Assembly: GCA_008802785.1 (NCBI GenBank)
Contig: CM018325.1
Span: 1-26,122, forward strand
From: Symmetrospora coprosmae
Lineage: Eukaryota; Basidiomycota; Cystobasidiomycetes; Symmetrosporaceae
DNA length: 26,122 bases
Direction of reading: 5' to 3'
Shown: piece by piece, positions 6,529 through 25,415 of the stretch
Layout of the letters: the number at the start of each line of letters is the position of its first letter
Numbering within the stretch: the first letter of the stretch is position 1
Notes under the pieces: model-generated
What the model was told of the DNA's origin: nothing
Databases searched by the model: none
Seen by the model: only the letters and a program-made list of their open reading frames with translations
Program-made: the position numbers and the translations under genes

Positions 6529-6693
6529 AGCAGAGCTGCCTCCAACTACCAAGTGATAGCTGGTTAATCTTACTTTAATTGCTGGAATAACCTTAGATAT
6601 AGGTAAATCAGCAGGCTTAGGCTTCAGAGGCTATGTGTAAGAATAAATGTTATAGTCCAAGGACTAGTGCAAGCTAGTTTTATAATTATTATG
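6529..6693 (+). other. group I intron in rnl, first (165 bases)
   Basis: Splits the conserved CCTCAGGT/AGCGAAATTCC of domain IV, close to E. coli position 1931 (a known insertion site). The exon ends in T and the intron ends in G. Core: GCTGGAATA ... AAATCAGCAG (P4 region), P7 GGCTA (6629-6633)/TAGTC (6653-6657) and P3 TCTTAC/GTAAGA. Only 19 bases separate the P7 strands, enough for P3 but leaving no room for a P8 hairpin. No ORF. Confidence 0.85.
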
Positions 6694-7304
6694 AGCGAAA
6701 TTCCTTGGCCACTAATTATGGTCCCGCATGAATGAAGTAACGATGCTCTCGCTGTCTCCACACACAGCTCAGTGAAATTGAATTAGCCGTGAAGATGCGG
6801 TTTGCCTGCAAATAGACGGGAAGACCCTATGCAGCTTTACTATAAGCAGTTATTGCCATTGTTGATCGTTAGGTGTAGGTACAGGGTAGTCGACTAGACA
6901 AAAGTGAAAGACCTTGACTAATCATCGATGAAGGCTAACCTTGAATAAGAGACAATGGCTGCCTGGTAGTTTCTCTGGGACGGAGTTCTATAATAAAATA
7001 TCATAGAAGTCCAAAGGTTTGCTTAAATTGGAATGAAACCAATCTATGCGAACGGAGTGAGTGATTCGAGCGACAGGGTTAAACTTGTCCGTTCTGGTTC
7101 TCGCTACGCTCGAAAAAGAAAAGTGTAATAGCAAAAGCAAGCTTAACTGTAAGACCGACAAGTCGAGCAGATACGTAAGTAGGGTATAGTGATCCGGTAG
7201 TACATTATGGAATGGCTATCGCTCAACGAATAAAAGCTACGCTAGGGATAACAGGCTGATACCGGACGAGAGTTCATATTGTCTCCGGTGTTTGGCACCT
7301 CGAT

Positions 7305-7488
7305 AAATGGGATATTCGATGTCGAGGATAAATAGGGTGTACTGCAAAAATTTACGAGTACGTAGGATTTGCAGCAGAGCTGAGAGCAGCATCTGTTCAA
7401 CGATTCTTTTCCCTAACCATTGGCCGTTAAGGTAACCAATGACATGACAGAGTCTGAGCTTTCTTGCCGTAGAAAGTAACCTAAATAG
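7305..7488 (+). other. group I intron in rnl, second (184 bases)
   Basis: Interrupts CACCTCGAT/GTCGACTCATTAC in the peptidyl transferase centre, near E. coli 2504/2505. The guide GTCGAGG in the intron pairs with exon CCTCGAT, ending in the U-G pair that marks the 5' splice site. P7 is GATTC/GAGTC after GTTCAAC, and P8 is ATTGG/CCAAT. The last base is G. No ORF. Confidence 0.9.
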
Positions 7489-7580
7489 GTCGACTCATTA
7501 CATCCTCCCGCTGTAGTAGGTGGGAAGGGTTCGGCTGTTCGCCGATTAAAGTAGTACGCGAGTTGGGTTCAATACGACGT

Positions 7581-7742
7581 GGATTATAAATGACTTGCGT
7601 TGTTAAAGATAATTTGCTGGAAACTCTAATGAGTAATCAGCAGTAAACAAAAGTTTATTCAGAGACTATAGATCTTTATTCTATTCCTATAGAACATAGT
7701 ATAGTCCAACCTAGTTAGAAATAACTAGTTGTTAATAGATTG
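7581..7742 (+). other. group I intron in rnl, third (162 bases)
   Basis: Sits between ATACGACGT and GAGTCAG, near E. coli 2609, so the third rnl exon is only 92 bases. Guide GCGTTGT pairs with exon ACGACGT. The core has TTGCTGGAAAC ... AATCAGCAG, P3 AAAGAT/ATCTTT, and P7 GACTA/TAGTC. It ends in G. No ORF. It belongs to the same structural family as the cox1 and cob introns. Confidence 0.9.
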
Positions 7743-8087
7743 GAGTCAGTATAGTCCCTATCTTTTGCAGGGACGAATAGTAAAAGGGAGACATCTTCTC
7801 AGTACGAAAGGACTTGAAGGTACATACCTCTGGTGCATCTGTTCTGTAATAGGATAGCAGAGTAGCTACGTATGGAAAGGATAAGATCTGAAAGCATCTT
7901 AAGATCGAAGCTCCCTCCTAGATACTAAGGATGGTAAGAGGCAGACTACCTCTAAATAGGCTACGTGTATAAGTACTGCAAGGTATGAGCTAAGTAGTGC
8001 TAATAAACCATTTAACTTTATAATATCATATTGAGTCAGGATGCTCTGCTCCTGGACCACGTTCTGGAATACCTGCGGGTCGGACTA

Positions 8088-8161
8088 CAGGTGGGAAGCT
8101 GGCCTGGTTTGCTGCCTTCTTTGGGAGAAGGACTTTCTGCGTTCGAATCGCAGTCACCTGA
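8088..8161 (+). tRNA. trnP(ugg): tRNA-Pro (UGG)
   Basis: Acceptor CAGGTGG/TCACCTG, short D stem AGC/GCT, anticodon stem CCTTC/GAAGG with loop TTTGGGA, T stem CTGCG/CGCAG. The 5' boundary was chosen because this strand gives seven pairs; a decoy CAGGATG 50 bases upstream pairs poorly. The spacer 8021-8087 after rnl holds weak GC-rich hairpins only. Confidence 0.9.
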
Positions 8162-22931: not shown

Positions 22932-22934
22932 GCA

Positions 22935-23846
22935 ATGGTATTTCAAATTCAATATTTATATGACTTCCTTAATGAGTTACACGGCAATTTACCGTATTTG
23001 GCTCACATTGAGTTAAACGATAAAGCCCAAGGCGCCCATAGTTGTATTACAGGGATGTTAAGTTCGTTGCCGCCTAACAGTATTATTCTGGACTATGTTA
23101 ATAGTCATTTCTCCTATCATTTCGAGAATATGGCGAAGTACGGCAGCGGCCATTTTAGTTCAGGGTTAAGCATTTACAATTTAGCACCTAACTGTTCTAT
23201 CAGCTGTGTCAGCACGGCAGCCGGAGTGTACGCGTTAAAACAAGTTGTAGGACCAGAAACTTACCAATATTACTTTGGAAGTGCTGTAAACCATTACAAT
23301 CGGTTAACTACCCATATTTCTAACTTTAAAGTTAGAAGTCCGAAAAACGCTATGTATGCAGAAAACTCAGCCTGTTGAGCCTGACTGCCTCTTTATATGA
23401 CCCCAAACTATTACTTAGACTTTGTTCAAAGCCATCCTTTTTACAACCTGAGTGTTGGAGAAGAAAGAATTTTGGATTATTTAACTGCTTTTGTACCCCG
23501 GATTTTAGAACAGCTTTTATTAGACAATCATTTTGGTTACTGAAACAACCAGAAAACGGTTTATTTCCGTTTTGAACCCCGATGTCCTAGCCTGTTGAAC
23601 GACTATACTTACTCTCATTTAAAATCAACTCCGGTAGAAATCAGAAATGCGAAAACAAGCGAGTTGATTAGAGAATATGTACCCTCAATTTCAATGGCCG
23701 GGGATCTTTTAGGTGCTAAAAACAAACACCGGTTCCAAAAAGCAGTTCAGCAGAAAAAGTCTATTACGTTTGAGTCTTGAGGAATCAGCGTTAAAGTTAA
23801 CCGACTATCTAAAGCCCAAAAAGCACAAGTTTTAGGTACCCTTTAA
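22935..23846 (+). CDS. free-standing GIY-YIG homing endonuclease ORF
   Basis: A 303-residue ORF, open only with TGA as Trp. N-terminal 95 residues are of unknown role; then a GIY-YIG-like nuclease core: GVY (97-99), YYFGSA (112-117), N122-R123 and a likely catalytic Glu in RILEQ (E192). The C-terminal part (about 222-290, PVEIRNAKTSELI...VPSISMAGDLLGAKNKHRFQKA) resembles the small DNA-binding modules of homing endonucleases. It is not inside an intron: it starts one codon after the cox3 TAG, in the same frame. It uses CGG, CGT and AGA codons, unlike the CGA-only host genes, so it is probably a recent mobile arrival. Its stop overlaps the C-rich motif. Identity is by motif only. Confidence 0.75.
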
Positions 23847-23855
23847 ACCCCCTTA
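23845..23855 (+). promoter_or_regulatory. C-rich 3' motif after the endonuclease ORF
   Basis: AAACCCCCTTA beginning inside the TAA stop (23844-23846) and ending at the first base of trnI. Placed as if it served the cox3-ORF mRNA. Confidence 0.6.
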
Positions 23856-23925
23856 GACCTTTAGTTTACCGGTAAAACGAACAACCGATAATTGTTAAAA
23901 GGAAGTTCAATTCTTCCAAGGTCTA
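23855..23925 (+). tRNA. trnI(gau): tRNA-Ile (GAU)
   Basis: Perfect acceptor AGACCTT/AAGGTCT, D stem GTTT/AAAC, anticodon stem AACAA/TTGTT, T stem GGAAG/CTTCC. The loop CCGATAA carries C at position 33, as in trnD. Confidence 0.93.
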
Positions 23926-24077
23926 TCATGAACTATGGCTTATTGTAAATTACCAGAACCACATAGGTTACTTACCTATTATAGATCTCGCTTAGCCAAT
24001 ACGGTTCTAGTGAGTTATTCTAAGTTTGCTATCATTTCGTCTTTTTAAGTGTTAGCAAATGTCTAATACAACTATCT

Positions 24078-25415
24078 ATGCGATTACTTAAAACACACCC
24101 TATCTTAGGACTACTTAACAGTTACATGGTTGATTCACCTCAACCCGCAAATCTATCATACATGTGAAACTTTGGTTCACTACTAGGTGTATGTCTAGGT
24201 ATCCAAATCGTTACCGGGGTTACACTAGCAATGCACTATACACCATCGGTAGATCTAGCCTTTATTAGTGTTGAACACATCATGCGGGACGTAAACTACG
24301 GATGACTTATCCGATACTTACATGCTAACGTGGCTTCATTCTTCTTTATCTTTGTGTACTTACACATCGGACGAGGACTGTACTATGGATCATACAAATC
24401 ACCCCGAACATTACCTTGATCAATTGGAGTTATCATGCTAGTCTTAATGATGGCTATCGCATTCCTTGGATACGTACTGCCATACGGTCAAATGTCACTG
24501 TGAGGAGCGACTGTAATTACTAACTTATTATCTGCTATCCCTTGAATTGGTCAAGACTTTGTTCAGTTTGTGTGAGGAGGTTTCTCTGTAAATAACGCTA
24601 CATTAAACCGATTCTATTCATTACACTTCCTACTTCCATTCGTACTAGCAGCATTAGCAGCAATGCACTTACTTACACTTCACGAACACGGGTCATCAAA
24701 CCCATTAGGGGTTAGCGGTAACACAGATCGATTACCATTCCACCCTTACTTTACATTCAAAGATTTAGTAACAATCTTTGGGTTCCTATTAGCACTATCT
24801 GGTATTGTATTCTATGCTCCTAACCTATTAGGACACAGTGATAACTACATTCCAGCAAACCCAATGCAAACGCCACCATCGATCGTTCCTGAATGATAAA
24901 ATAGGTGTCATTATAAAACTACTCAAAGACTTTTGCTGGAAACTCTTTACAGACAATCAGCAGCTAGAAAACATAATTCTAGTTCATCGACTACGTATAT
25001 GGTATAGTCAAATCACTGTAGTAATACGGTGTTATAATTACTGGACCTGCTTCCATTCTATGCTATTCTACGATCAATCCCAAACAAACTCTTGGGAGTT
25101 CTTGCTATGTTCATGGCTCTACTAATCTTACTGGCAATGCCTCTATTAGATACGTCACGAATCCGAGGAGCACAATTCCGACCATTAATGCGATTTGCTT
25201 TCTGAGTCTTTGTGGCTAATTTCGCTGCGCTAATGTATCTAGGAGCTTGTCACGTTGAAGACCCATTTATTACCGTGGGACAAATCTGTACAGCACTGTA
25301 CTTTGGATGATTTGTGGTAATCGTGCCTGTAATCGGTATTGTTGAAAACACATTACTTGATTTAGCAACACAAAGCCCATCCTTCCGATCAGAGATCGGA
25401 ACTAAAATTAGCTAA
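24078..25415 (+). CDS. cob: cytochrome b, two exons
   Basis: A 396-residue heme-bearing core subunit of complex III. Exons 24078-24897 and 25045-25415. Landmarks: heme ligands in [31 protein letters not shown] segment (near 24310-24385) and [29 protein letters not shown] (near 24620-24700); [20 protein letters not shown] (near 24470). Splicing makes [22 protein letters not shown], restoring the Qo-site PEWY motif. TGA is Trp. An upstream ATG at 24059 is in another frame. Stop TAA 25413-25415. Confidence 0.96.
24898..25044 (+). other. group I intron in cob (147 bases)
   Basis: The shortest intron here, splitting the Tyr codon (T/AC) of PEWY. Guide GTCATT pairs with exon AATGAT, and AGGT just before it pairs with the start of exon 2, ACCT (P10), which fixes both splice sites. 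Core TTGCTGG ... AATCAGCAG, P6 CTAG/CTAG, P7 GACTA (24989-24993)/TAGTC (25005-25009), P9 CACTG/CGGTG. Only 11 bases lie between the P7 strands. Ends in G. Confidence 0.9.

Follow-up and report, generated by a model that had tools for sequence, protein, structure and literature searches.

Eleven short group I introns without open reading frames in the compact mitochondrial genome of Symmetrospora coprosmae

Introduction

Small mitochondrial genomes whose introns are mostly or wholly devoid of open reading frames (ORFs) are described in two Tremellomycetes. That of Filobasidium wieringae (27,861 bp, 38.51% GC) carries seven introns (six of group I) and no intronic ORF, according to the accessible part of PMC9059411, while that of Hannaella oryzae (26,444 bp) contains eight group I introns with one intronic ORF, located in cox1 (two), atp6, rnl, atp9, nad3, nad1, and nad5, according to the accessible part of PMC8193148; the same parts of both sources give no intron lengths. 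Far stronger reduction is found in Phialophora, where group I introns of 63–75 nucleotides (nt) in the nuclear small subunit (SSU) ribosomal RNA gene, assigned to subgroup IC1, hold only the helices P1, P7, and P10, and the 67-nt one is reported to splice in vitro (accessible part of PMC3160393). The present analysis concerns contig CM018325.1 of Symmetrospora coprosmae (assembly GCA_008802785.1), analysed as one stretch of 26,122 nt that is hereafter called the window. It is a fungal mitochondrial genome in which eleven introns of 147–256 nt interrupt eight genes (rnl three times, nad3 twice, and cox1, atp6, cox2, nad1, cox3, and cob once each).

Like the window, the F. wieringae genome combines small size with introns free of ORFs; however, it has seven introns and none in cox1, as far as its source goes, while the window has eleven in total including one in cox1. 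In comparison with the H. oryzae introns listed above, the window has none in atp9 and nad5, has them in cox2, cox3, and cob, and carries three in rnl. The first-pass annotation had considered ORF-less minimisation of this kind unusual for a genome of 26 kb; the introns are indeed all short and lack ORFs, but the claim of rarity is weakened by the two Tremellomycetes. With the Phialophora introns those of the window share extreme reduction and the retention of P1, P7, and P10, while the former are nuclear, much smaller, and without other core pairings and most of the latter keep P3, P4, P6, and P8. In the literature on the smallest or P8-less group I introns PMC3160393 was the useful precedent, which is not a claim that others are absent from print.

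The introns of the window are real, well defined, and mostly ordinary in kind. It is considered highly probable that they represent eleven independent short introns of group I without ORFs, apparently closest to type IB, which are either old residents or immigrants trimmed by genome compaction.

Splice Sites

The intron ends were set by three independent marks, namely, the joining of exons, the P1 guide with its U·G pair, and the terminal G together with P10. On spliced translation the joined exons of cob, cox1, atp6, cox2, nad1, cox3, and nad3 give continuous conserved proteins, with such junctions as IFFM|VMPALVGG in cox1, IVAG|HTLLKILSGF in atp6, LRYD|QLMQF in nad1, LYWH|FVDVVWLF in cox3, and YECG|FNPIF at the first nad3 intron, and the rnl flanks join at positions 1931|1932, 2504|2505, and 2596|2597 of Escherichia coli 23S for its first, second, and third intron, respectively. 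The terminal U of the 5′ exon pairs with a guide G in all eleven P1 helices (4–7 bp), and each exon prefers its own guide (mean −9.6 versus −2.8 kcal/mol when guides are swapped; none of 100,000 permutations as good).

At the 3′ end every intron terminates in G, and P10 abuts the 3′ exon in register in nine cases (at least 3 bp in eight), being displaced by one base in the first nad3 intron and by 2-3 bases in cox3. The P10 swap test gave an own mean of −6.2 against −0.2 for swapped partners, a result equalled in none of 100,000 permutations; a shift of the 3′ site by 1–3 nt changed the mean energy from −6.2 to values between −0.05 and −0.93. From this guide, core, and splice-site anatomy the excision of all eleven introns is predicted.

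It is scarcely credible that the segments are not introns at all, having arisen as assembly errors, frameshifts, or translated inserts. Such a view could appeal to the cox2 intron, where one frame stays free of stops for 80 codons, the longest such run in any intron frame; it is contradicted by the recurrence of the same grammar (P1, terminal G, P10, P4, and P7) at eleven unrelated sites and by the joining of exons into conserved proteins and ribosomal RNA. Of the 66 intron frames 10 were searched with Pfam, and none of these matched homing endonucleases (LAGLIDADG, GIY-YIG). Spliced translation and frame lengths bear out the first-pass count of eleven short ORF-less introns in eight genes, at the places named, and the P1, terminal G, P10, P4, and P7 elements confirm its assignment of them to group I. 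The summed intron length is 2,028 nt, or 7.8% of the window, and nine of the eleven introns do not exceed 195 nt.

Splicing would follow two transesterifications: the internal guide would pair with the 5′ exon in P1, an external guanosine, bound at P7, would attack, and the freed 5′ exon would join the 3′ exon, lined up by P10 after the terminal G. As to their history, the introns are most likely long-standing residents of different sites, or immigrants to them, in which a homing gene was presumably lost or never present and which were trimmed as the genome as a whole became compact. Since clean excision would be close to neutral such introns could persist, and most likely they are immobile residents of a compact genome.

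Core Structure and Model Searches

In the core, P4 pairs are standard in 54 of 55 alignment cells (alignment A4), with changes on both sides at three of the five pairs, and the guanosine site P7, read by hand from the conserved sequence boxes, is likewise standard in 54 of 55 pairs. The exceptions belong to the first nad3 intron, where P7 (GACUA/UAGCC) and P4 contain a single A·C mismatch each. The pseudoknot helix P3, taken as a set, is stronger with its own partner than with swapped ones (mean −7.5 versus −5.4; 4 of 100,000 permutations as good) and reaches 5–7 bp in seven introns (all three of rnl, both of nad3, cox1, and nad1). J8/7 holds a recurring AUG-like word ahead of the S box. P8 is usual in group I introns without being strictly defining; here it is clear in six of eleven (rnl introns 2 and 3, both nad3 introns, cox1, and cox3; hairpin of −2.9 kcal/mol or better), and in nad1, atp6, and cox2 free folding found it weak or not at all. 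Short spans from the P to the R box and from the R to the S box leave little room for P2.1, P5 extensions, P6b, or P9.1/9.2, and by these features the introns appear closest to the compact IB type.

Rfam model RF00028, scanned over the whole window, recovered six introns at E ≤ 0.016: two above the curated 50-bit cut-off (cox1, 65.0 bits; cox2, 50.6 bits) and those of atp6 (1.2e-7), nad3 intron 2 (8.6e-5), nad1 (0.009), and nad3 intron 1 (0.016). The third rnl intron scored 34.8 bits in an own-genome search and only a 12.6-bit fragment in the permissive local scan, which also gave the first rnl intron 17.6, cox3 18.2, and cob 15.6 bits. Altogether two of the eleven reach 50 bits, five lie at 24.6–41.8, three lie at 15.6–18.2, and the second rnl intron has no match.

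The introns of nad3 (both), atp6, nad1, and cox2 served to build a further covariance model, R1, whose only paired helices were P4 and P7. Its scores on the six held-out introns were 32.6 (cob), 29.7 (rnl intron 2), 24.3 (cox3), 21.5 (rnl intron 3), 15.6 (rnl intron 1), and 11.6 bits (cox1), with none ranked lower than 13th among 24 matches. Two matches outside the introns (13.5 and 12.0 bits) outrank cox1, so that the first rnl intron stands near and cox1 within noise, and cox1 is the best Rfam match despite the lowest R1 score of the held-out introns.

Several observations weigh against so uniform a group I assignment. The second rnl intron lacks an RF00028 match even in the permissive local scan. 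A free structure search places P7 canonically in only five of the eleven introns, and for rnl intron 1, nad3 intron 1, atp6, nad1, cox3, and cob the proposed core fold is a reading of the boxes. Folding constrained on P7 still chose other places in rnl intron 1, atp6, and cox2 and none for nad3 intron 1, whose P7 carries the mismatch given above. P3 is weak in atp6 and cox2 and no better than swaps in cox3 and cob.

The Individual Introns

All eleven introns lie on the forward strand. In rnl the first (6529–6693, 165 nt) has P1 AGGU/GCCU and P3 UCUUAC/GUAAGA, with no P8 between the 3′ strand of P3 and J8/7. The second (7305–7488, 184 nt; P1 CCUCGAU/GUCGAGG, P3 UAGGG/CCCUA, P10 GUCGA/UCGAU) has P3, P4, P6, P7, P8, P9, and P10 all readable, and the third (7581–7742, 162 nt) shows P1 ACGACGU/GCGUUGU, P3 UAAAGAU/AUCUUUA, and P10 GAGUCA/UGACUU.

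The first nad3 intron (11940–12127, 188 nt) has P3 UCAGU/ACUGA and P10 UAAUC/GAUUA at offset 1; in its region 12026–12030 with 12067–12075 the P7 and the P4 mismatch would each be paired by a C-to-U change. The second (12334–12480) is 147 nt long, or 146 nt if the 3′ site is placed one base earlier, and has P1 AAGGU/GCCUU, a complete short core, and a P10 of only 2 bp. Three readings of the nad3 tail after this intron exist, of which KTYS* is preferred by codon usage; the two rival tails (34 or 22 residues) were rejected because they need codons that the genes counted never use, TGG in one case (0 of 68 Trp codons) and ATA in the other (0 of 357 Ile codons).

The cox1 intron (15897–16054, 158 nt) lies in phase 2 and has P10 UAUGCCU/AGGCGUA; that of atp6 (18504–18698, 195 nt) has P10 CAUA/UAUG and a P3 of only GGA/UCC. 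The nad1 intron (21069–21238, 170 nt) shows P3 UGAGU/ACUCA and P10 CAACUA/UAGUUG, its P8 not being found as a stable hairpin, and the cob intron (24898–25044, 147 nt, phase 1) has P1 AAUGAU/GUCAUU and P10 ACCUG/UAGGU. The two longest introns, 256 nt each, owe their length to different loops. In cox2 (19732–19987; P10 UUGUGG/UCACAG) it is an insert in L5, which matches the GC-rich intergenic repeat D1 at 20 of 23 nt (0 of 500 shuffles as good), and in cox3 (22619–22874; P1 UGACAU/GUGUCA) a long L8 holding the motif ACATATAAG.

With well-set splice sites these short introns, at sizes of 147–195 nt with and without P8, form a test bed for the smallest natural group I core.

Two Families: Spread or Common Core Type

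The first-pass annotation had divided the introns into two families, family 1 (cox1, cob, and rnl introns 1 and 3) and family 2 (both nad3 introns, atp6, nad1, cox3, cox2, and rnl intron 2), and had read each as the spread of one streamlined ancestor. In whole-intron local alignments the division is visible, the mean pairwise z being 5.6 within family 1 (6 pairs) and 4.0 within family 2 (21 pairs) against 0.5 between them (28 pairs), and an A-U to U-A swap in P4 also separates the two. However, the partition is not clean: with R1, built solely from family 2, cob of family 1 outscores rnl intron 2 and cox3 of family 2.

The high unmasked similarity would favour two streamlined ancestors that already lacked ORFs, each copied into a number of sites through a process such as reverse splicing. 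It is confined, however, to four boxes (P, Q, R, and S), where the family-defining words lie and which belong to the Rfam group I consensus: AAUUGCGGgAAA, AAuCCGCAGCC, GUUCAaAGACUA, and AAGAUAUAGUC. When these boxes (43–48 nt) are masked the mean z falls to 0.3 within family 1, 0.2 within family 2, and 0.1 between families. Counting as standing out any pair for which at most 1 of 150 shuffles was as good, none of the 27 within-family pairs does so against one of 28 between families (cox1 with nad1); the nearest within-family pair is rnl intron 1 with cob (2 of 150 shuffles as good). The boxes recur in bacteria and phage contigs: 68 stretches of bacterial genomes and at least 120 of a viral collection carry the family-1 pattern, while the family-2 pattern was found in 6. 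These boxes were chosen by hand, however, and the patterns scanned were strict: among the intron loci of the window itself the family-1 pattern matched only rnl intron 3 and the family-2 pattern only atp6 and nad3 intron 2.

The insertion sites bear on the same question. By phase and approximate codon the cox1, cob, and first nad3 introns correspond to the classes P212, P823, and P124 of PMC7325650, respectively, a rough match of position which would place them at old and widely used sites and so speaks against recent spread. The other five of the eight protein-gene sites (nad3 intron 2, atp6, cox2, nad1, and cox3) fit no class listed in the accessible part of that source, positions being compared without formal alignment, a point in favour of spread; as its table covers few species, the unmatched sites need not be new.

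Elsewhere, introns at the P212, P823, and P124 sites are frequently long, with homing genes of their own. With masking having removed the resemblance and cob crossing the family line, the two-ancestor reading is regarded as improbable, and these sequence comparisons give no support to streamlined ancestors having spread recently. The family resemblance is therefore that of a common catalytic type rather than of recent copies; some of the introns may share an ancient origin. The case also warns against inferring intron spread from conserved core boxes alone.

Introns without P8

In cob and, more mildly, in rnl intron 1 the core departs from the usual plan. Between the R box and J8/7 there are 4 nt in cob (CGUA) and 12 nt in rnl intron 1, which leave no room for P8. 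Despite the absent P8 and an unconvincing P3 of only 3 bp, cob keeps P1, P7, P9, and P10. An alternative cob P7 (ACUAC with GUAGU further 3′) was not preferred, the J8/7 and S box words being kept at the nearer site, and inspection by eye found no second S box inside the intron.

For comparison an external set of 196 matches in 194 loci was used, chosen by the box patterns and thus not a random sample. In the 180 of these introns with an S box the median R-to-S gap is 62.5 nt. Two introns have by rule a 4-nt gap like that of cob but were not counted as parallels, because another S box follows farther downstream in each; the shortest remaining gap is 18 nt, with a P8 of 3 bp. Among the introns of the phage collection, L065 and L075 have ATAGTC as early as 16 nt beyond the R box, followed downstream by another S box, and L065 holds a LAGLIDADG-like ORF by eye.

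Two readings of these introns can be weighed. It is a serious possibility, held with slightly more doubt than assent, that cob, rnl intron 1, and perhaps nad1 are degenerate and unable to fold on their own, being completed by nuclear-encoded proteins or other RNA parts. The gaps of 4 and 12 nt, set against 18 nt in the shortest true external case, point this way, and the maintenance of P1 and P10 argues that cob is still excised; however, perfect P3 helices of 5-6 bp are kept in rnl intron 1 and nad1, and the Phialophora introns of 63–75 nt with only P1, P7, and P10, the 67-nt one splicing in vitro by the report in the accessible part of PMC3160393, indicate that protein help is not proven necessary. 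More tentatively, and as a rather doubtful possibility, cob and in milder form rnl intron 1 may each be a working mitochondrial group I ribozyme without P8, in cob practically without P3 as well, with the guide, P4–P6, P7, P9, and P10 kept. On the ribozyme reading cob would be a natural halfway form between the canonical core and the Phialophora micro-introns with P1, P7, and P10.

If cob splices, it is either an unusually stripped ribozyme or protein-dependent. Splicing without P8 and a real P3 would mean that the accepted ribozyme minimum needs revision or that a protein partner can be sought, and the complete cores of 147–160 nt in the same genome can serve as controls for cob and rnl intron 1.

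Genome Context

The window is contig 77 within a 20.05-Mb assembly and has a GC content of 39.7%. It contains rns, rnl, VAR1/rps3, and the usual nad, cox, cob, and atp genes, every gene read lying on the forward strand, with 23 transfer RNAs (tRNAs) by ARAGORN in default and 25 in mitochondrial mode. The rns gene spans both ends, positions 1–581 of the Rfam bacterial SSU model lying at 25672–26122 and 631–1533 at 1–871, and the window is taken for a circular mitochondrial genome. Genetic code 4 is used, since TGA serves 68 times and TGG never for Trp among the genes counted; TGG and ATA (0 of 357 Ile codons) are both missing from these genes, and CGA makes up 87 of 92 CGN Arg codons. A cox1-based search for mitochondrial relatives in the viral collection found none.

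Directly 3′ of cox3 lies an ORF of 303 amino acids (22935–23846), for which Pfam gave no match even at E = 1, and its single-sequence AlphaFold model was uninformative (mean predicted local distance difference test score 32.9). In Filobasidium globisporum orf201 overlaps cox3, according to the accessible part of PMC9059411. At 15298–15422 a tRNA-like stretch carries three copies of the GC-rich unit gagaaccttcggtgcct in the place of the D-loop; neither ARAGORN in three modes nor Rfam called it as a tRNA. GC-rich intergenic repeats occur at 9704–9773, 12613–12682, 890–912, 10009–10043, and 10200–10234 and comprise a 70-nt pair of 94% identity, to which a third, shorter piece is related, as well as a 35-nt pair of 97% identity.

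The motif ACATATAAG, mentioned above for the cox3 intron, has eight matches in the window against 0.51 expected, at 4573, 9072, 14258, 17491, 21399, 22775, and 25623 on the forward and 10430 on the reverse strand, some of them shortly upstream of rnl and rns. In sequence it is similar to the mitochondrial promoter of yeast, ATATAAGTA. A stretch of 17 nt is common to the copies at 17491 and 22775, and the latter overlaps the 3′ strand of P8 in the cox3 intron; as this copy lies inside the intron, an intron-internal promoter is possible.

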